Positions 10,040 through 20,202 of a stretch of 40,636 nucleotides of DNA are shown here, in pieces (position 1 is the first letter of the stretch; each line of letters begins with the position of its first letter). A program made the translations under genes and the position numbers. Under the pieces are notes generated by a model. The model saw nothing but the letters and a program-made list of their open reading frames with translations. It did not search any database and had not been told where the DNA came from. Origin of the DNA: Desulfuribacillus stibiiarsenatis (GTDB lineage: Bacteria > Bacillota > Bacilli > Desulfuribacillales > Desulfuribacillaceae); the NCBI RefSeq assembly GCF_001742305.1, contig NZ_MJAT01000008.1, forward strand, positions 1 through 40,636. Direction: 5' to 3'.

Positions 10040-10314
10040 TAGCTTGATACAGCTTCCTTAAATTTTTTACCTGGCTTAAAAGCAGGTACTTTTGAAGCTG
10101 GGATAGAAATTGTTTGCCCAGTTTGAGGATTGCGTCCGGATCTAGCAGCACGTTCTCTGACTTCGAAGTTTCCGAACCCAATAAGTTGGACCTTATCGTT
10201 ATTTACTAATGCTTCGGAAATACTACTTAATGTTGCTTCTACTGCCTTTGCAGCATCTTTTTTACTTAACCCAGTTACTTCTGTTACCTTGTTAATTAGA
10301 TCTGTTTTATTCAT
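10039..10314 (-). CDS. HU-family DNA-bending protein
   Basis: The 91-residue protein matches bacterial HU over its whole length: [12 protein letters not shown] at the start, [21 protein letters not shown] in two parts around residues 46-66 including the conserved RNPQTG tip of the DNA-binding arm, and a closing [15 protein letters not shown] bends and compacts DNA and assists relaxosome, replication and recombination complexes. The second in-frame ATG is chosen because GGAG lies at the right distance; the first ATG nearly touches it. It is the first gene behind the GCGGAG-element promoter and heads the transfer gene cluster. Confidence 0.95.
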
Positions 10315-10414
10315 GTTCATTCTCCTTTTAAATTATTATTTTCATAGAACTGGAGTGACTTGTTTACCATTATGTACAATCTTTTTGCTTCTAATCACCT
10401 CCTTAAAATATAAA

Positions 10415-10441
10415 AATCGCTGAGATTTTCCCCCAGCGATT
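10415..10441 (-). terminator. Leader terminator between promoter and HU gene
   Basis: AATCGCTG pairs with CAGCGATT; on the minus strand a TTTTTATATTTT tract follows. It lies about 20 bases downstream of the probable transcription start and about 100 bases before the HU start. An AAGGAGGTG with no fitting long frame follows it. A terminator in this place would act as an attenuator or antitermination target. Confidence 0.7.
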
Positions 10442-10461
10442 GATATTATTCGATTATATTA

Positions 10462-10506
10462 ATTATAGCAGAAATAATTAGTGAAAAACTCCGCAATTTC
10501 TCCGCG
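10462..10506 (-). promoter_or_regulatory. Promoter with bipartite GCGGAG element upstream of HU/transfer operon
   Basis: On the minus strand two GCGGAG words ten bases apart (word starts 16 bases apart are not seen; the words enclose AAATT) are followed by TTTT, then 17 bases, then a perfect TATAAT at 10462-10467. The region 10315-10726 has no gene; besides this promoter it holds the leader terminator and the 10584-10609 terminator. The same element and spacing recur at 20327-20371. The weak -35 suggests that an activator or special sigma factor uses the GCGGAG pair. Confidence 0.65.
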
Positions 10507-10726: not shown

Positions 10727-12697
10727 TTATTCCCACGTAAGGTTTGCATTACTTATGGTTGTATGACTAGCATTGCTTAACGCTTCTTTAATTACCTTAA
10801 CTAATTCTGGTTCGGAACATACTTCTTCTAGTAATTTAAGCAAAACACTTAATTTATGGTGTTTACTATACCACCAAATGTTCCTTAAATTCAAAGACTT
10901 TTTGCTAGAATTGACACCTAAATTGTCATATGCAAGCTTTTTAACTAAACCATTATATAAATGCAACTTAAAACTTACCCAACAAGCCTCAATCAAGTCC
11001 TTTTTGCTCGATTCATCCAAACAATCTACTACTTGATCATTTAATGTTATACTCTTAGAATGTTTTATAGCTTTAATAACCGTATTTTGAATGCTTCTAA
11101 ATGGATTGGAATAAATGTTACAATAAACTTGTGCATTAGAATTATGTCCATATCCATTCATCCATTGAGCTACTAATGTATTCACTGTATTGCCATGATA
11201 ATCATCAGAGTTTGCAACGTATTCTTGATATTGCTTTACAACACCAATTTTTAAATCTGCAATGATTTGAGGAGTAAAAATAGATAGTGATTCTTCAAAT
11301 ATCAAATATTGATCGTAAAACTTCATATTTTGTATTTCAGGAGTTTTAGCTTTTAACTTAATTGAAACTTGAGCACGTTTATATGCAGAATACCCCTGCT
11401 TTATTATTTCTTTAGCCGTAAAATCCATCAAAAATCTTTCTGGAAGATTGAAATTGGTTTTTTTACTAGTGCTACTAATTACAGAACCAACTTTAAATCG
11501 AATCTGATCCTTTACTAATTCTTTAATTAATTGGTTAAAACTATTTTCTTCTTGTGGTATATATCTATTAAGCAACTGTGTAATTAAGTCGTTATTCAAC
11601 TCATCTTCATCATCTTCATCGTCACTACTATATGATGAAAATATTTCATCTATTTTATTTATTACTGGAATAACATGGCATGAATGAGCAGAATCTAACA
11701 AATTCTTTACTATTTTCTCGATACCGTCATCATCTGCGTACTCCTTAAATAAAATAATGCCATTGTATCTTTGTCCAATAAGTATTGCTTCAAGGTTTTC
11801 GTTTATATTCTTGCTTCCGTCATGTGTGAGTCCGTAGCTATCTGTAATAACAAAATGATCAGGCCAATCATTATTACACATTGGCAATTCTAAAAAAATC
11901 TCTTCAACCATAGAAATAGAACTAACATCATCTTGCGACTTATAATTTCTGTTTGAATTATTTATAGATAGTAATGCCTTTTGCAATGATGATCCATTCA
12001 AAAATTTACCTTCAAAGTAAACATCCTCGTCATTATCATCATTATCATTTTTAAAAGCAAAACCACTATTTATTATATTACTAGTAGCCTTTTCGTATAG
12101 CCATTCAAAAATGTCATTAAAATTCGATTGAATAACTGAGCTAGTGCTAAATGCTGATGCTATCTGTAGCCTAAGATCTTCTTGCTTATCTTTTACTTTA
12201 TCTAAACTACGCTTTTCTTGGTAAAGATACTGCATTTCCATGTAGATTTTATCGTGTATCATTTTCACAAAAACATCTTTGTCGTCTGCTATCAACTTGT
12301 CAATGTTAAAGAATTTTGTATAATCTTTAGTAGCTATATCGTTAAGTTGTTTCTTAATCCATTCACTTTCTTCATATGGACTCATATTTTTGGGTAGCCC
12401 TGAAACATATTGCCCCATAAGTCTCTCAAGCCCTGAAAATAAATTCTCAGCAAACAAAATTCTTAATTTCTCTTTTGATTTAAATTTAATACCAACTGTT
12501 ACTTTATCTATGTCCTTCTTAAACAAATAATGCATCAGTACTGTAGTCGTAGATTTAATCCCATCAAGTACATTAAATGATTTTTTAAAATCTTTTAGAA
12601 TTAAGTGCTTAATAAAAGTGGATTTTCCAACACCTGATTTACCAATAAGCAGCAATATCATTCCTGCAAAGCTCTGAACCAATTCATTTATTCTCAT
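10727..12697 (-). CDS. Large P-loop GTPase of unknown family
   Basis: The start is the ATG (MRINELVQ) after GGAGGATACAAAC, giving 656 residues; a longer frame would run through the leader hairpin. GTPase motifs are clear: G1 GKSGVGKST at 19-27, a TTT segment near 50-52 for G2, G3 DSYG at 286-289 and G4 NKID at 347-350. The 230-residue insert between G2 and G3 is helical and has an acidic stretch near 217-226. The remaining 300 residues are unassigned. The layout recalls large self-assembling GTPases (dynamin or septin-like) more than translation factors. It is a lone gene under its own attenuated promoter, so it is likely cargo, possibly for defence or stress. Confidence 0.7.
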   Translation of the reverse strand: MRINELVQSFAGMILLLIGKSGVGKSTFIKHLILKDFKKSFNVLDGIKSTTTVLMHYLFKKDIDKVTVGIKFKSKEKLRILFAENLFSGLERLMGQYVSGLPKNMSPYEESEWIKKQLNDIATKDYTKFFNIDKLIADDKDVFVKMIHDKIYMEMQYLYQEKRSLDKVKDKQEDLRLQIASAFSTSSVIQSNFNDIFEWLYEKATSNIINSGFAFKNDNDDNDEDVYFEGKFLNGSSLQKALLSINNSNRNYKSQDDVSSISMVEEIFLELPMCNNDWPDHFVITDSYGLTHDGSKNINENLEAILIGQRYNGIILFKEYADDDGIEKIVKNLLDSAHSCHVIPVINKIDEIFSSYSSDDEDDEDELNNDLITQLLNRYIPQEENSFNQLIKELVKDQIRFKVGSVISSTSKKTNFNLPERFLMDFTAKEIIKQGYSAYKRAQVSIKLKAKTPEIQNMKFYDQYLIFEESLSIFTPQIIADLKIGVVKQYQEYVANSDDYHGNTVNTLVAQWMNGYGHNSNAQVYCNIYSNPFRSIQNTVIKAIKHSKSITLNDQVVDCLDESSKKDLIEACWVSFKLHLYNGLVKKLAYDNLGVNSSKKSLNLRNIWWYSKHHKLSVLLKLLEEVCSEPELVKVIKEALSNASHTTISNANLTWE

Positions 12698-12741
12698 GTT
12701 TGTATCCTCCATTTTTTTGTATAGTTCAATAAATATAAAAA

Positions 12742-12764
12742 GGGCAATGCATAAAGCATTACCC
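12742..12764 (-). terminator. Attenuator terminator just upstream of the GTPase start
   Basis: GGGTAATGC pairs with GCATTGCCC (one G-U pair, five-base loop), followed on the minus strand by TTTTTATATTT. It lies between the leader peptide and the GTPase ribosome binding site, about 45 bases before the start codon, the usual place of a transcription attenuator. Confidence 0.8.
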
Positions 12765-12771
12765 TTGGAAT

Positions 12772-12804
12772 TTATGAACCATGCCAGAAGAAATAGAATA
12801 CCAT
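12772..12804 (-). CDS. Ten-residue leader peptide MVFYFFWHGS
   Basis: ATG follows GAGGTGATGGAT, and the frame ends at TAA eight bases before the terminator stem. Six of ten residues are aromatic or histidine. A short translated frame ahead of a terminator is the standard arrangement for ribosome-mediated attenuation, in which stalling in the leader prevents terminator formation. An in-frame ATG two codons upstream is possible but too close to the binding site. Translation is inferred. Confidence 0.45.
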   Translation of the reverse strand: MVFYFFWHGS

Positions 12805-12867
12805 ATCCATCACCTCTCATTTCATAAACACCAGCAACAGGGTTTCTGCAACCAGCATAATAATTGT

Positions 12868-12896
12868 ATTATACCATTAATTTCGAAAATAGGAAG
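12868..12896 (-). promoter_or_regulatory. Promoter of the attenuated GTPase transcript
   Basis: On the minus strand CTTCCT, 17 bases, TATAAT with an upstream TGG (extended -10). The -35 is weak, which the extended -10 can offset. Transcription would start about 60 bases before the leader peptide. Confidence 0.55.
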
Positions 12897-12920: not shown

Positions 12921-13028
12921 TTAACGTACTTTTTCAATAATCTCACTTAAAACCATTAACATAAGTCCTATGAATCCTAAGGCTATCACAAAAATCAATA
13001 TAATCGCTCCTTTGAAAGCTGGAATCAT
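12921..13028 (-). CDS. 35-residue hydrophobic membrane peptide coupled to the resolvase
   Basis: The ATG overlaps the resolvase stop codon (TGATG), and GGAG lies 11 bases upstream inside the resolvase gene, so translation is coupled. The peptide has one span (AIILIFVIALGFIGLMLMV) and a charged tail EIIEKVR. A TTG start after AAAGGAG inside the frame would give a shorter 25-residue form. It is not similar to a known family. It is one of three single-span peptides in the window. Confidence 0.5.
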   Translation of the reverse strand: MIPAFKGAIILIFVIALGFIGLMLMVLSEIIEKVR

Positions 13029-13663
13029 CACTTCACTTGCTCCGAATAATTCATCTCGTATTGCTTAATAATCTTATAAAACGTATTCTTCTTAACATCC
13101 AGGATACTCTGAAATGTGACAGCTGTTATTTTACCCTTTTTCCATTCCTGATAGTGTTTATCCAGCAGTTGCCTTTGGTGTTTAGTAAGCGTATCTAGAT
13201 TCATCTTCGGCCTACCAAGATGCTTACCCTTTGCTTTGGCTGCTGCTATACCTTCACGTTGTCTAGCTTCTATTTTATGGCGTTCTTTTTCCGCCATGTA
13301 AGATAATAACTCGAATACGATATTAGAAATCAGACTCTTTTCAAGATCCGTCTTGTTATTTGTATTCAGGATAGGAGTATCGATTATTGTAATCTCAACA
13401 CCCATTCTCCGAAGTTCGTTCCATTCCTTTTTTATCTGGTCCATACTTCGACCAAGGCGATCCAATTCCTTTACTATGATTTCATCACCAGGACGAAGGA
13501 TTAATTTCAAGGCTTGATATGCGACTCTTTCGAAGTTCTTTCCAGTAGCCTTGTCGATAAATATATCTCTATCATCCAGATTATAAGGTTTAAGCGCTTC
13601 TAATTGTCTATCAATACATTGGTCTTTAGCACTTACTCTCACATAAGCAAATGTTTTATTCAT
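13028..13663 (-). CDS. Serine resolvase/invertase
   Basis: The 211-residue recombinase has the catalytic N-terminal domain with Ser11 in AYVRVSAKDQ, the ELDRLGRSMDQI segment near residue 66, the long E-helix region, the ARQREGIAAAKAKGKHLGRPK linker in two parts (about 133-153) and a helix-turn-helix C-terminus. The length and order are those of small serine resolvases, which separate plasmid multimers or transposition cointegrates. Start: ATG after AAAGGAGCATTGAA. Repeats upstream (13700-13821) may be its site. Small invertases (DNA inversion) cannot be excluded. Confidence 0.9.
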   Translation of the reverse strand: MNKTFAYVRVSAKDQCIDRQLEALKPYNLDDRDIFIDKATGKNFERVAYQALKLILRPGDEIIVKELDRLGRSMDQIKKEWNELRRMGVEITIIDTPILNTNNKTDLEKSLISNIVFELLSYMAEKERHKIEARQREGIAAAKAKGKHLGRPKMNLDTLTKHQRQLLDKHYQEWKKGKITAVTFQSILDVKKNTFYKIIKQYEMNYSEQVK

Positions 13664-13699
13664 TTCAATGCTCCTTTTTACTTATCTGATACATTTATA

Positions 13700-13962: not shown

Positions 13963-15183
13963 TCAAAGCTTATATTCATAATCTTCTTCATATTGTGGTA
14001 TGACATAGTTTAAATTTTTTAATTTATTAACTTCTATATCAACAGACCACGGATCATTTCCTTCTATGTATTCTAATATTGAAAAATTCGCTTCGTCTAT
14101 ATCTTTAGTTGTATCAATATCTAAAAGAAATTTCACCAATAATGTAATTTCTATCTCATCTTCGCCAACCGATGTAAATTTCTCATCTCTAGTATCATAA
14201 ACTGGATTGTAAGCATATATCTCTACATTTTTTTCTACTATTACACTAGCTGTTACCATAATATCATCGCCTAATATTTCAATATCTTCTAAACTTACAT
14301 TTACTATATCTCCATCAAAATAAGTTTGTATGTACCCGTCAATAAAATAATTTGAACGAATATTCTCCGGACTTAAGTTAGAAATGTAATCATCTACTTC
14401 TGAAAGAATCTGATCGGAAAAGTACTTCAGAATAATTTCTTCGGCCATACCATTTTTCATATCACTTAAAAACTTATTATACAAATCTTGTGATAAAATA
14501 TGCGAATGCAATTCTTTTACTTTATTATCATTAATCGTTAAAAAATCTTCTATTGACTTATAAGCTTTGATATCAACGTTTCCCTTAATATCATGATGAA
14601 TTTGATATTGACCATCCGGGGTAGCTTTCGTTATAACATCACAATAAGCCTTAATATCATTAGAAATAAAATGACAATCATCTATACTATTTTTCTCGAT
14701 AAATAATCGATACGAGTACCAAATTATAGCATCTCTAATTTCTTTCTTAGGGTAATTAAACGCATCGTTATCTTTTGTTTTTACATGACATTGCTTTATA
14801 AACGGGGCTTTTTCATACATATCAATTTCTACAATATGTTTTAATATATCAGCTTCATAATCGACAATTATCAATTGGTCATTTTTTTGATATTGATAAA
14901 ATTTATCATGAAATTCCTTAATAAGATCATCTAAATTTGTATTCATTTGAAATATATGGTCATTACCCTCTAAGTATGGCCTAAGTTTGATGTACGCTGA
15001 TTGGATATCCGCTAGTTGTTTCTTTAAAAATTCTAAGTGAGCTCTCAAAAGTTCCTCATATACAGTAGGGTTAATCACAATATATACATCGTCAAGTTTT
15101 GCCAATTTCATCAAAAGTTTATTCTTACCTTTTGTAAAGAAAGGATCCTTGTAAATGGTGTTGGTATCTAAGAAAATATACAT
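13963..15183 (-). CDS. PIN-domain protein, last gene of the TcmP operon
   Basis: The 406-residue protein starts MYIFLDTNTIYKDP: Asp6 and the TN pair are the first catalytic acidic motif of PIN nucleases, as in DUF4935-type PIN proteins. A second acidic cluster is likely in the 165-180 region (ISNDIKAYCDV). The PIN part covers about residues 1-190; the rest is acidic, beta-rich and unassigned. PIN domains cleave RNA, often as toxins. It starts 12 bases after the three-Cys protein gene and so belongs to the same transcript. The extra C-terminal half of about 200 residues is unusual for a toxin PIN and may bind a partner. Confidence 0.75.
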   Translation of the reverse strand: MYIFLDTNTIYKDPFFTKGKNKLLMKLAKLDDVYIVINPTVYEELLRAHLEFLKKQLADIQSAYIKLRPYLEGNDHIFQMNTNLDDLIKEFHDKFYQYQKNDQLIIVDYEADILKHIVEIDMYEKAPFIKQCHVKTKDNDAFNYPKKEIRDAIIWYSYRLFIEKNSIDDCHFISNDIKAYCDVITKATPDGQYQIHHDIKGNVDIKAYKSIEDFLTINDNKVKELHSHILSQDLYNKFLSDMKNGMAEEIILKYFSDQILSEVDDYISNLSPENIRSNYFIDGYIQTYFDGDIVNVSLEDIEILGDDIMVTASVIVEKNVEIYAYNPVYDTRDEKFTSVGEDEIEITLLVKFLLDIDTTKDIDEANFSILEYIEGNDPWSVDIEVNKLKNLNYVIPQYEEDYEYKL

Positions 15184-15195
15184 AATATCATCCTT

Positions 15196-15969
15196 TTATT
15201 TTGTCAAAGTACCATCTTTTATATAATATTCAATTTCGCGTGCATTACAGAAATCGATTAGTTTTTCACACAAATTATTATAAAAGCTTCTAACTCCCGG
15301 ATACTTTGATACCGTTGTATTATAATTAGTCCTTCCGAAAATGATTTTATCTGCGAAAGAAACCGATTCCAAAATCTCTAAAAAATCTTGATCAATAATG
15401 TTTGGCGTAGGATATGGTTCAATACTTACCCATGTCTTACATCCTTTTTCATGTAATTTTCTCAAGCTGTTAATTCTATCTATATATGGCGCAGAGTTCT
15501 TCTCAATTTCCTTCCTAAAAGCTTCGTTTAATGAAATCAGTGTAATACCATACTGATTGTCCAAAGAAAAGTCGGCTAGCACCTCTGGTAAAATCCCTTT
15601 TGTTAATACAGTACACTTAATTCCGTTGCTGTTTAATTTTTTTATGATTTCAATGCTCAAATCAGAAATCTCTTCATATTGATACATGAAAGGGTCCGTT
15701 GTAAAACTTAAATGGACTGACTCTATTTTACTTTTATGTTTTGGGATTTCTTTTTCCAATAACTCTAAAGCATTGGAAACAATACAAGGCTCCAACCACT
15801 CTTCGAAACTTTTTACCTTTCCGAATCTCTTAGCCATTAAAAATGCATAACAAGGATATAAGCATCCATGAGAGCAGCCTTGTACGTGATTGATTGTATA
15901 ATCGCCATATTCTACGTTCGTTTTATACAATAATGATTTTCTCTGGATATAATCAGTGACACTTTTCAT
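15196..15969 (-). CDS. Three-Cys-motif (radical-SAM-like) protein, TcmP partner
   Basis: The 257-residue protein carries Cys32, Cys36 and Cys40 in GCSHGCLYPCYAF, a CX3CX3C arrangement near the N-terminus. The following SFTTDPF segment (about 89-95), a TVLTKG strand and a WVSIEPYP segment fit the barrel of spore photoproduct lyase/DUF5131-like proteins. The usual radical SAM motif is CX3CX2C, so the extra residue is notable. Such proteins are predicted to hold an iron-sulfur cluster. The gene overlaps the TcmP gene by 17 bases, which matches the known pairing of three-Cys proteins with TcmP. The substrate is unknown. Confidence 0.75.
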   Translation of the reverse strand: MKSVTDYIQRKSLLYKTNVEYGDYTINHVQGCSHGCLYPCYAFLMAKRFGKVKSFEEWLEPCIVSNALELLEKEIPKHKSKIESVHLSFTTDPFMYQYEEISDLSIEIIKKLNSNGIKCTVLTKGILPEVLADFSLDNQYGITLISLNEAFRKEIEKNSAPYIDRINSLRKLHEKGCKTWVSIEPYPTPNIIDQDFLEILESVSFADKIIFGRTNYNTTVSKYPGVRSFYNNLCEKLIDFCNAREIEYYIKDGTLTK

Positions 15970-17110
15970 ATCCTCTCCTCACCTTCATATCCTTTTTATA
16001 TGAAATCCATGTAGCTCTTCTTCCAGTTTCCGTGATCGGTGGATTTCTTGATACAACAATCGAATTCATAGCCTCTAATTCTTTAATGGCAGCGTTAATA
16101 TCTGATTCAGAATACAGAGGCCCCTTTTCTAAATAAAATGATACCAATATATCATCATAACTTTGGTCGGCAGATGAAATGAAGTTCATTATTACCTCTT
16201 TTACACCATCACCTTTACTATAATCGAAAAGTGTCATTTGTCCACCATTAATCAGCTCGCTCGATTTTTTACACATGTTACTAGCCATCTCAACTAATCC
16301 ATGTTTGTGATTTGTAGCAAAAACCATCCTATATTTAGGCATATTCTGTATTTTAACTTTAATCGGTATATTGATAACATAAGAGAATACGTTACGAAGT
16401 TGGTTGCAGTATTCTTCAACAAATCGGTCTTCAGCTTGAAAAGCATCTATTGCTCCAGAATTATAATCAGTTATGATTTTCTGCCAATATGAACCATTTG
16501 CTACTCGATTCATGTTCGGTATGTCGTTCTTAGTGCTACCAGAATCGTTCTCTCTTTCTTCAAGAGCAGATATCTCCTCCGAAAGTGGCTTTGCGTTTAA
16601 AACCCTGCAACCCTCTCTAATAAACCCAAATGAATTTAAGTTTAGCAACATTTCCATACTCCTGCAGGAGTAAGATTTTAAAGAAGAAAAAATATCAAAA
16701 TGTAAGCTCTTAATTCCGAATGGATCAATATATAGAAAGACGTTCTGATATTTACAGCTTTCCAATATTTGATGTAATGAAGTTTCATATGCACCAGGAT
16801 AAATTGTGCATTTATATTGTTGTGTATTGTCCTTAAGGTCATTAGAATACATTTTTTCGATGAAACAAAAATCAATACTGTTGTGTACTTTTGATATTTT
16901 TAATGCCTCTTTTGCTATTTCTAATGCCATTAGTGGTGAACCAATTTCTCCATCATCAAAACGACCTTTCCCCGCAAAACAATCAATATATTTTACATTA
17001 GCCCTAGTTGCTAAGATCTTATTAAAATACAATTTTAGATAATGTCCTAATAACTTATCTTTCGTTTTTGACCATTCCTTTTTTTCAACAAAGAATGTAT
17101 CTTTTGCCAT
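15953..17110 (-). CDS. tcmP: Three-Cys-motif partner protein TcmP
   Basis: The 385-residue protein opens with FFVEKKEWSKTKDKLLGHYL and the YIDCFAGKGRFDDG segment (41-54), the pattern that defines TcmP. The DxFAGxG loop and the later YIDPFG (127-132) are placed like the cofactor and catalytic loops of a Rossmann-type methyltransferase, but a methyl transfer activity has not been shown here. The C-terminal 110 residues look like a winged-helix domain. It is the first gene of a three-gene operon with the three-Cys and PIN genes, and has its own promoter with two Spo0A-box-like sites. Confidence 0.8.
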   Translation of the reverse strand: MAKDTFFVEKKEWSKTKDKLLGHYLKLYFNKILATRANVKYIDCFAGKGRFDDGEIGSPLMALEIAKEALKISKVHNSIDFCFIEKMYSNDLKDNTQQYKCTIYPGAYETSLHQILESCKYQNVFLYIDPFGIKSLHFDIFSSLKSYSCRSMEMLLNLNSFGFIREGCRVLNAKPLSEEISALEERENDSGSTKNDIPNMNRVANGSYWQKIITDYNSGAIDAFQAEDRFVEEYCNQLRNVFSYVINIPIKVKIQNMPKYRMVFATNHKHGLVEMASNMCKKSSELINGGQMTLFDYSKGDGVKEVIMNFISSADQSYDDILVSFYLEKGPLYSESDINAAIKELEAMNSIVVSRNPPITETGRRATWISYKKDMKVRRGYEKCH

Positions 17111-18025: not shown

Positions 18026-19798
18026 TCACTTAACATTCATGTTTTTTAAGTTATCTATCACTACCTCCATTTGCTTATTTGCAAGAAGTTCTGATCGCTG
18101 TTGTTCATCTGGCGTTTCCTGCTTATCACCCATCAACTGTATAAACTGACTTTTCTTTAGCCCTACAGTCTCTAAGATTTGATCATCAGAAGTATTAGAA
18201 GCAATTAAGTAATAAGAAAATACAGTTCTCTTTTGACCGTCTCTAGCTAATCGGCCCTCACATTGATGATGAATACCAGCTGACCAATCAAGTTCACCAA
18301 ACACAATGAATCTACAAGCATGCTGCAGGCCATCAATTCCTTCCCCAGTTCTAAGAGACATCACCAATAGCTTCGAATCCCCATTCATAAATCGATCCAG
18401 GCTTTCATCTCGATTCTTTGACTTTCCATGTATGAACACTGGGTTATATTCTTTAAATTCTTCTTCCCAAATCTCGTACACCTGGTGGTGATAACCATAT
18501 AACAGAACCTTTTCCCCTGTATCCAGTAAACTTTTCACAAAAATAGCTACATGGGCAGCTTTCGCTATTCCTGTAGCTTTACGGGTTTCTTCCACTATTT
18601 TCGTTTTTAATTGCCCTTTAAGGCTCCATTCACTGGTCTCACTGTATTTCTTTGCTTTATCTAATGTTTCGTACTCCTTAAGTAACTTTTCGAATAGATC
18701 TTGGTCCATATCGATGTCAACTATACTACGGTTTAATGGTGGTAATTCCAGCTTAGCCTCATCTTCAGTCCTACGTAATAACAATCCTTCGTTTTTCAAA
18801 TGATTATTTAGCACCTCAGGCTCGGCAACAAGTTTGGTACCATAACCGGTACACCATTCCCTCGAAAAGCTTTCCCAATCCCCTAAACAGTGATGTTCAA
18901 TAATATTTAATACACTATGGATCTCATTGCCGTAATTGTAGATTGGCGTGGCCGACATACCTATTGAGTATTCAGCTTGTTCACTAAGCAAGGACGCTGC
19001 ACTATACTTTTGTGTACCTGTGTGCCGTAAATGATGGATTTCATCAAAGCCTACAATTGGGAAGCTGTAAGCATCTAATGCGTCCTTCCAATAACCGATT
19101 AACCCATAGTGTGTAATATACATAGGAACCTGTGGCAATTCATAAGGCTTGGTACCCGTGATGAAGTGAATATTGTCATCCCTATCAAATAATGCATAGT
19201 TCTGTCCCTTCATAACCGGAAGTTCTAGAAACTCGTCAATTTTTCTGCGCCATTGCTTCATCAAATGTTTTGGCACAACCAGTAAGACAGGCCACTGATT
19301 TACCGTTGCTACAAGTGCTAAAAATTGCACTGTTTTCCCAAGCCCCACCTCATCGGCCAATAATGTTTTCTTGAAATGTTGCATCCATGCTAAGCCCTCT
19401 TTTTGATACTTTCTTAATATTCCTTTGAATATCTTACCTGGATTCTTTTGATTTGGTTGAAAAAGTATTTTCCTACTTTCTATCGCATGGTTAACAATCT
19501 TAACGTATTCGCTATCCCACTTCTCATAACACTTAACCTCTAGTGGGTACCGGAGCATTAACCAATTAAGATCCCCTGTTGATCTCTTATTAGCCTTAAA
19601 TCTTGCCACACCAGATCCTCGACTATCAGCTGATGGAAATAATCTTTTTATTAGCTGCAGAACGATTGGTTGTGCATGTATGATCCAAGAACCGGTTCGG
19701 TCTTCATAATCAATACTTCCGTAGTACGTTGTTTCTCTCTGAGGCTGTAAATATGCTGGGGCAGAATAATTCCTACTCATTTGTTTAGCTGCATTCAC
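18026..19798 (-). CDS. SNF2-family helicase/translocase
   Basis: A 590-residue SF2 enzyme. Motif I is DEVGLGKT (149-156), motif II is DEIH (252-255), motif III is GMSATP (280-285), and motif VI is QCEGRLARDGQ (512-522). The first 110 residues are an extra domain. Such proteins move along duplex DNA with ATP. The GTG start overlaps the TGA of the nuclease gene, after GGGGGGTG; a further upstream GTG lies inside that site. The nuclease and SNF2 pairing occurs on many phages and plasmids, where it may serve replication or restriction-like processing. Confidence 0.9.
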   Translation of the reverse strand: MNAAKQMSRNYSAPAYLQPQRETTYYGSIDYEDRTGSWIIHAQPIVLQLIKRLFPSADSRGSGVARFKANKRSTGDLNWLMLRYPLEVKCYEKWDSEYVKIVNHAIESRKILFQPNQKNPGKIFKGILRKYQKEGLAWMQHFKKTLLADEVGLGKTVQFLALVATVNQWPVLLVVPKHLMKQWRRKIDEFLELPVMKGQNYALFDRDDNIHFITGTKPYELPQVPMYITHYGLIGYWKDALDAYSFPIVGFDEIHHLRHTGTQKYSAASLLSEQAEYSIGMSATPIYNYGNEIHSVLNIIEHHCLGDWESFSREWCTGYGTKLVAEPEVLNNHLKNEGLLLRRTEDEAKLELPPLNRSIVDIDMDQDLFEKLLKEYETLDKAKKYSETSEWSLKGQLKTKIVEETRKATGIAKAAHVAIFVKSLLDTGEKVLLYGYHHQVYEIWEEEFKEYNPVFIHGKSKNRDESLDRFMNGDSKLLVMSLRTGEGIDGLQHACRFIVFGELDWSAGIHHQCEGRLARDGQKRTVFSYYLIASNTSDDQILETVGLKKSQFIQLMGDKQETPDEQQRSELLANKQMEVVIDNLKNMNVK

Positions 19799-20202
19799 AA
19801 GGACACCCCCCACAATCGATTTAAGCCTATACTAACACACGTTTTACCGTTTATTTTTTCTGGAACCTTCACTCGATTATCACAGACTAAAATAACAGCC
19901 AATACACTTTCAAACTGTGCATATCTTTCTAATTGATCAATGACAAGATTTCGATTTGGCTTGCCTTTTTTAACCTCAATTATAATTCCAGTGTTATCAC
20001 CCGTATAAATAAAAAAATCCACGCGGTTTCGTGGGGCCAATACTTTTTCCTTCTCATATTCTACGTTGTTTTGATCAAGGATCCTTTTAATTTCGTATTG
20101 GATATCAAACTCAGAGGTTGTTACCGGAAGCCTTAACTGTTTTAAAAGTTTAATGATAAAAGGCACATTTACATTTTGATTTGCTAGGTTTCTAAATAGC
20201 AT
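19795..20202 (-). CDS. Small PD-(D/E)XK-type nuclease, SNF2 partner
   Basis: In this 135-residue protein the stretch RVDFFIYTGDNTGIIIEVKK (about 59-78) has the Asp followed by the I-E-V-K core of the PD-(D/E)XK fold, and a QLERYA helix follows (about 89-94), as in VRR-NUC or Holliday-junction-type nucleases. The N-terminal 55 residues may form a winged helix. It is the first gene after the GCGGAG-type promoter and overlaps the SNF2 gene, so the two probably form one machine. The exact subfamily is uncertain. Confidence 0.65.
   Translation of the reverse strand: MLFRNLANQNVNVPFIIKLLKQLRLPVTTSEFDIQYEIKRILDQNNVEYEKEKVLAPRNRVDFFIYTGDNTGIIIEVKKGKPNRNLVIDQLERYAQFESVLAVILVCDNRVKVPEKINGKTCVSIGLNRLWGVSL

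Follow-up and report, generated by a model that had tools for sequence, protein, structure and literature searches.

In streptococci, the leader peptide MsrDL (MYLIFM, ending in UAA) stalls ribosomes at its stop codon, where they obstruct an intrinsic terminator (PMC10314930). A ribosome stalled near the end of the nine-residue TlrB leader prevents termination (PMC6851288). In the E. coli W28p construct, with a stop codon 5 bp from the terminator, termination fell from about 90% to less than 10% when the leader was translated (PMC4824070). Leader control of a GTPase, which an earlier note on this DNA had taken to be new for a large GTPase of unknown family, has a precedent in hflXr of Listeria (PMC6310831). 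Control of a non-resistance gene is likewise known from toiL-topAI of E. coli, in which the leader ORF senses translation stress (PMC12121999).

We examined a candidate leader-peptide attenuator ahead of a GTPase-like gene in the window, that is, the whole stretch of DNA analysed (40,636 nucleotides; 1-40636). The earlier note had described a promoter, a leader frame with its ribosome binding site, a terminator and a GTPase ribosome binding site within 200 bases, and all of these were present, on the minus strand. A promoter and a Shine-Dalgarno (SD) sequence with a short ORF were found 5' of an intrinsic terminator that itself lies 5' of the gene, as follows.

12876-12868, minus strand: extended -10 promoter element TGGTATAAT, identified by sequence; -10 perfect, -35 weak
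12816-12809, minus strand: leader SD GAGGTGAT, a perfect 8-nt match; anti-SD duplex -11.5 kcal/mol
12804-12772, minus strand: leader ORF MVFYFFWHGS with stop codon UAA, identified by translation
12766-12740, minus strand: intrinsic terminator hairpin of 11 bp, about -15.6 kcal/mol, with a U-tract to about 12731
12710-12706, minus strand: GTPase SD GGAGG, duplex -9.3 kcal/mol
10727-12697, minus strand: gene for an orphan GTPase-like protein of 656 aa, identified by motifs
10611-10582, minus strand: probable terminator of the GTPase transcript, an inverted repeat with 14-bp perfect arms followed by a T-run

From the position of TGGTATAAT, transcription is expected to start at about 12861. The leader frame consists of ten codons and a stop (ATG GTA TTC TAT TTC TTC TGG CAT GGT TCA TAA), and its SD is stronger than that of the GTPase and among the stronger SDs computed in the window. 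Only 5 nt separate the leader stop from the first stem base of the terminator, which is the only terminator in 1.5 kb (0.5 expected). Outside the terminator stem, AUGGUUCAUAAAU and downstream AUUUAUUGAACUAU also pair (12722-12784, minus strand), giving a long nested inverted repeat that takes in the last codons of the leader. All minus-strand promoter candidates found in the intergenic region lie 5' of the terminator, and none was found between the terminator and the GTPase start codon (ATG at 12697, minus strand); transcription of the GTPase gene must therefore cross the terminator. As the gene ends at 10727 and the probable terminator follows at 10611-10582, attenuator and GTPase look like one transcription unit.

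We compared this arrangement with chance. The promoter motif alone was not significant, as TGNTATAAT occurs four times in the window, always on the minus strand, against about six expected from composition. The background set comprised about 0.37 Mb (the window and 20 stretches of the same genome, one of which was masked) and contained 48 terminators with a predicted gene 10-150 nt downstream. An SD-preceded short ORF ended near only one of the 48, and that ORF was the leader MVFYFFWHGS. When the upstream 161 nt were shuffled with dinucleotides preserved, an ATG ORF whose SD was as good and whose end fell 0-15 nt short of the terminator arose in 0.08% of shuffles, and in 4.6% under a much looser ORF definition. 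The leader RNA also folded better than its shuffles (z = -4.3). The combined promoter-SD-ORF-terminator arrangement is not chance-like, and the attenuator reading put forward in the earlier note is well supported by the architecture together with two of these controls (the 48 terminators and the stricter shuffles).

Whether the position of a ribosome on the leader affects the terminator was assessed by folding the leader RNA with a ribosome-sized mask at each codon, assuming a footprint of 15 nt on either side of the P-site. The terminator formed whenever the P-site was at one of codons 1-8, most of its pairs having a probability of about 1. At codon 9 it was weakened (probability 0.3 for RNA extending to the U-tract and 0.9 for longer RNA), and at codons 10-11, the latter being the stop codon, the 5' arm was masked and the hairpin probability was 0. 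In silico, then, ribosome position on the leader alters terminator formation, and since no hairpin remains with the mask at codons 10-11, read-through would be favoured by a ribosome that pauses at the stop codon.

A base-paired antiterminator of the vmlR or hflXr type was also considered. As long as the 3' arm has not been transcribed, a fold is available in which RNA farther upstream binds the 5' arm of the terminator (ACCCU with AGGGU, plus neighbours). Pairing as strong was found in 758 of 2000 shuffles, so that no specific pairing beyond chance was evident, and at equilibrium the terminator was favoured by about 12 kcal/mol. We therefore do not claim an antiterminator.

Taken with the likenesses described below, these results lead us to favour, on balance, a ribosome-mediated transcription attenuator of the MsrDL/TlrB kind, in which ribosome arrest occludes the terminator. 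We regard it as likely that the locus is a genuine leader-peptide attenuator, whether it senses by arrest or by coupling. RNA polymerase would initiate near 12861 and transcribe the strongly initiated 10-codon leader. By default, transcription would end at the terminator at 12766-12740 and the GTPase would be off. Should a ribosome be held on the last codons of the leader or on its UAA, whether by a drug, by a small molecule or because peptide release fails, the leading edge of that ribosome would cover the 5' arm of the terminator; no hairpin would form, and the GTPase gene would be transcribed. Translation of the leader, termination in vivo, and stalling together with its cause are steps that we infer. 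Sensing of antibiotics or of ribosome stalling is plausible by geometry, as the 5 nt between stop and stem equal the distance at which a ribosome represses an E. coli terminator (PMC4824070).

MVFYFFWHGS contains neither R nor K and hence lacks the R/K-X-R/K macrolide-arrest motif of the Erm, TlrB and HflXr type. Nor was TTNTTT, the pause motif of msrDL and vmlR that would synchronise polymerase and ribosome, present between 12862 and 12733. Candidates for what the leader senses are a drug that blocks late elongation or release, a metabolite, or simple coupling of the pyrBI kind.

The orphan GTPase carries the motifs G1 (GKSGVGKS, at residue 19), G3 (DSYG, at 286) and G4 (NKID, at 347), and the interval between G1 and G3 is unusually long, with a very long insert. 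Its only matches to family models were sub-threshold hits to P-loop families (RsgA, Roc, MMR_HSR1 and Septin). By these models it had no HflX family match and is not HflX. No convincing homologues of the protein were found in relatives, in 398 genomes each of the phylum and the class, or in plasmids, phages and viral contigs, and a single-sequence structure prediction gave a mean pLDDT of 34, too low for use.

Searches with the leader were similarly unproductive. Rfam at gathering thresholds gave nothing, and the leader DNA had no match in plasmids; among phages an unannotated record gave a single AT-rich match of 45 nt, and 200 relatives yielded only short pieces at chance level. The peptide pattern gave only chance-level matches in the 398 phylum genomes and none in viral contigs, and in genome contigs none of the 80 matches listed combined a good SD with the leader layout. 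As neither leader nor GTPase had a homologue in the collections searched, no conservation or covariation supports the attenuator. The poor -35 of the promoter and a GTPase frame that remains open across the leader also count against it, as do the missing arrest and pause motifs and the chance-level pairing of the terminator arm.

Four other explanations were weighed. The high content of Phe, Tyr, Trp or His codons (6 of the 10) would suit an amino-acid attenuator of the pheL, trpL or hisL type that responds to scarcity of these residues, and the earlier note had stressed the aromatic codons. That emphasis did not survive the folding analysis, in which ribosomes modelled at codons 2-8 left the terminator intact; as it forms with ribosomes at the aromatic codons, sensing of aromatic amino acids is not supported. 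We consider such an attenuator highly improbable, given also that ribosomes at codons 2-7 leave the terminator formed, that the sole antiterminator pairing does not exceed chance, exists with no ribosome as well as with ribosomes at codons 1-5 and is weakened or lost at codons 6-10, and that the gene controlled does not encode a synthetase or serve biosynthesis or transport. The next explanation is a sensor of coupling, of the pyrBI kind and without arrest: a ribosome closely trailing the polymerase to the leader stop would prevent the hairpin, so that active coupled translation or a slowed polymerase would turn the GTPase on and blocked initiation would turn it off. The very strong leader SD and the lack of a known arrest motif would fit this explanation. 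The polymerase of Gram-positive bacteria is thought to outrun ribosomes, which counts against coupling, as does the failure to find a TTNTTT pause motif in the leader. A 5-nt spacing does strongly repress a terminator under coupled translation in E. coli and is used by pyrBI (PMC4824070), and we judge coupling without arrest unlikely.

Leader and GTPase may also be unrelated, the terminator merely ending an upstream transcript of the resolvase and small ORF, or promoter, leader and terminator forming a stand-alone tiny RNA or peptide. No terminator was found from the resolvase unit to 12766, and neither peptide nor GTPase has relatives that would link the two. Such independence would require the GTPase to have a promoter of its own within 12740-12710, and none was seen there; the rarity of an SD-preceded ORF ending beside a terminator (1/48; 0.08% of shuffles) also speaks against it. 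We think it improbable to a similar degree as coupling. Lastly, translation of the GTPase may begin at ATG 12820, in which case its N-terminus would form a hydrophobic anchor (MRGDGYGILFLLAWFINSKGNALCIALFIFIELYKK...) and the apparent leader would lie inside the gene. The frame is indeed open upstream to this ATG, giving 697 aa and spanning the whole leader, and hydropathy peaks at 1.5 over 19 residues; 11% of intergenic windows, however, are open by chance. Codon use in the extension fitted coding by one measure, only 2% of off-frame segments scoring as high, but 39% of open segments from true intergenic DNA reached the same score, which makes it uninformative, and an extension on grounds of codon use was rejected. 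The SD at 12820 is weak (-5.4 vs -9.3 at 12697), which favours the start at 12697, and the longer gene would contain a strong terminator. We regard a start at 12820 as quite improbable.

The window carries plasmid or conjugative features, including Alp7A-like, TcpC-like and HU-like proteins, a resolvase, and an ATPase of the conjugation type with matches in Bacillus and Staphylococcus plasmids. It also has defence-like genes (a TcmP partner, an SNF2 helicase and SIR2). The neighbouring recombinase is invertase-like, and an invertible promoter was considered and rejected for want of strong inverted repeats on either side of the promoter. Two copies of a 34-nt direct repeat (10303-10336 and 13652-13685; 82% identity) overlap the start regions of the HU and resolvase genes and enclose resolvase, attenuator and GTPase; they possibly mark a cassette boundary. 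Beginning at the end of the resolvase gene, a 35-aa hydrophobic ORF (MIPAFKGAIILIFVIALGFIGLMLMVLSEIIEKVR; 12922-13029, minus strand) without a Pfam match may encode a small membrane or toxin-like peptide. Ahead of the HU gene (10320-10480, minus strand) we noted TGCTATAAT, about 30 nt on a terminator-like hairpin (10441-10415), and past this a strong AAGGAGGTGAT that lacks a suitably spaced start codon. At 13963-17110 (minus strand), adjoining genes for a PIN-domain protein, a radical SAM protein and the TcmP partner match candidate defence models PDC-M30/M41. An SNF2-type helicase similar to DpdE/ZorD, with a small HSDR_N/Cas4-like nuclease 5' of it, lies at 18026-20202 (minus strand), and the two form a possible defence pair.

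Were the proposed arrest mechanism correct, the attenuator would tell when the orphan GTPase of a plasmid-like element is made, namely during ribosome stalling. The function of the GTPase would become directly testable, with ribosome rescue, drug tolerance or defence as its suggested purpose, and the known arrest peptides would gain one that lacks the established macrolide motif. A fuller version, in which a mobile element carries a new kind of large GTPase, kept silent until ribosomes stall at release or late elongation, that acts as a ribosome-rescue, resistance or anti-phage factor under an aromatic arrest peptide of a new sensing type, is speculative and unlikely to hold.

Four described systems come closest to the locus. 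In rli80-hflXr of Listeria monocytogenes a leader ORF and terminator also stand ahead of a GTPase-family gene, but that leader has 14 aa, an RLR motif and antiterminator/anti-antiterminator structures, and its target belongs to the HflX family, to which the present GTPase has no match (PMC6310831). The toiL-topAI system is alike in the proposed role, a stress-sensing leader ORF before a gene not for resistance, and differs in acting by translation repression and Rho with no intrinsic terminator (PMC12121999). Like tlrB (yxjB) of Bacillus subtilis, the locus has a short leader with its own SD and a proposed late stall that prevents termination, whereas tlrB has an RYR arrest motif, a NusG-dependent pause, a second, SD-sequestering hairpin and an rRNA methyltransferase as its target (PMC6851288). 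It shares with msrDL-msrD a very short hydrophobic leader, a UAA end, an intrinsic terminator directly after it and the expectation that terminator formation would be blocked by a ribosome halted on the stop codon. Unlike the present leader, msrDL encodes MYLIFM, in which L3 and I4 are needed, has the TTNTTT pause motif, responds to erythromycin and controls an ABC-F protein (PMC10314930); with a different peptide and no TTNTTT, our leader is not of the MsrDL type in these two respects. Its stop-to-stem distance of 5 nt is the same as in the W28p construct (PMC4824070). MVFYFFWHGS matches none of the compared known leaders by peptide; by layout the locus belongs with the ribosome-mediated leader-peptide attenuators.
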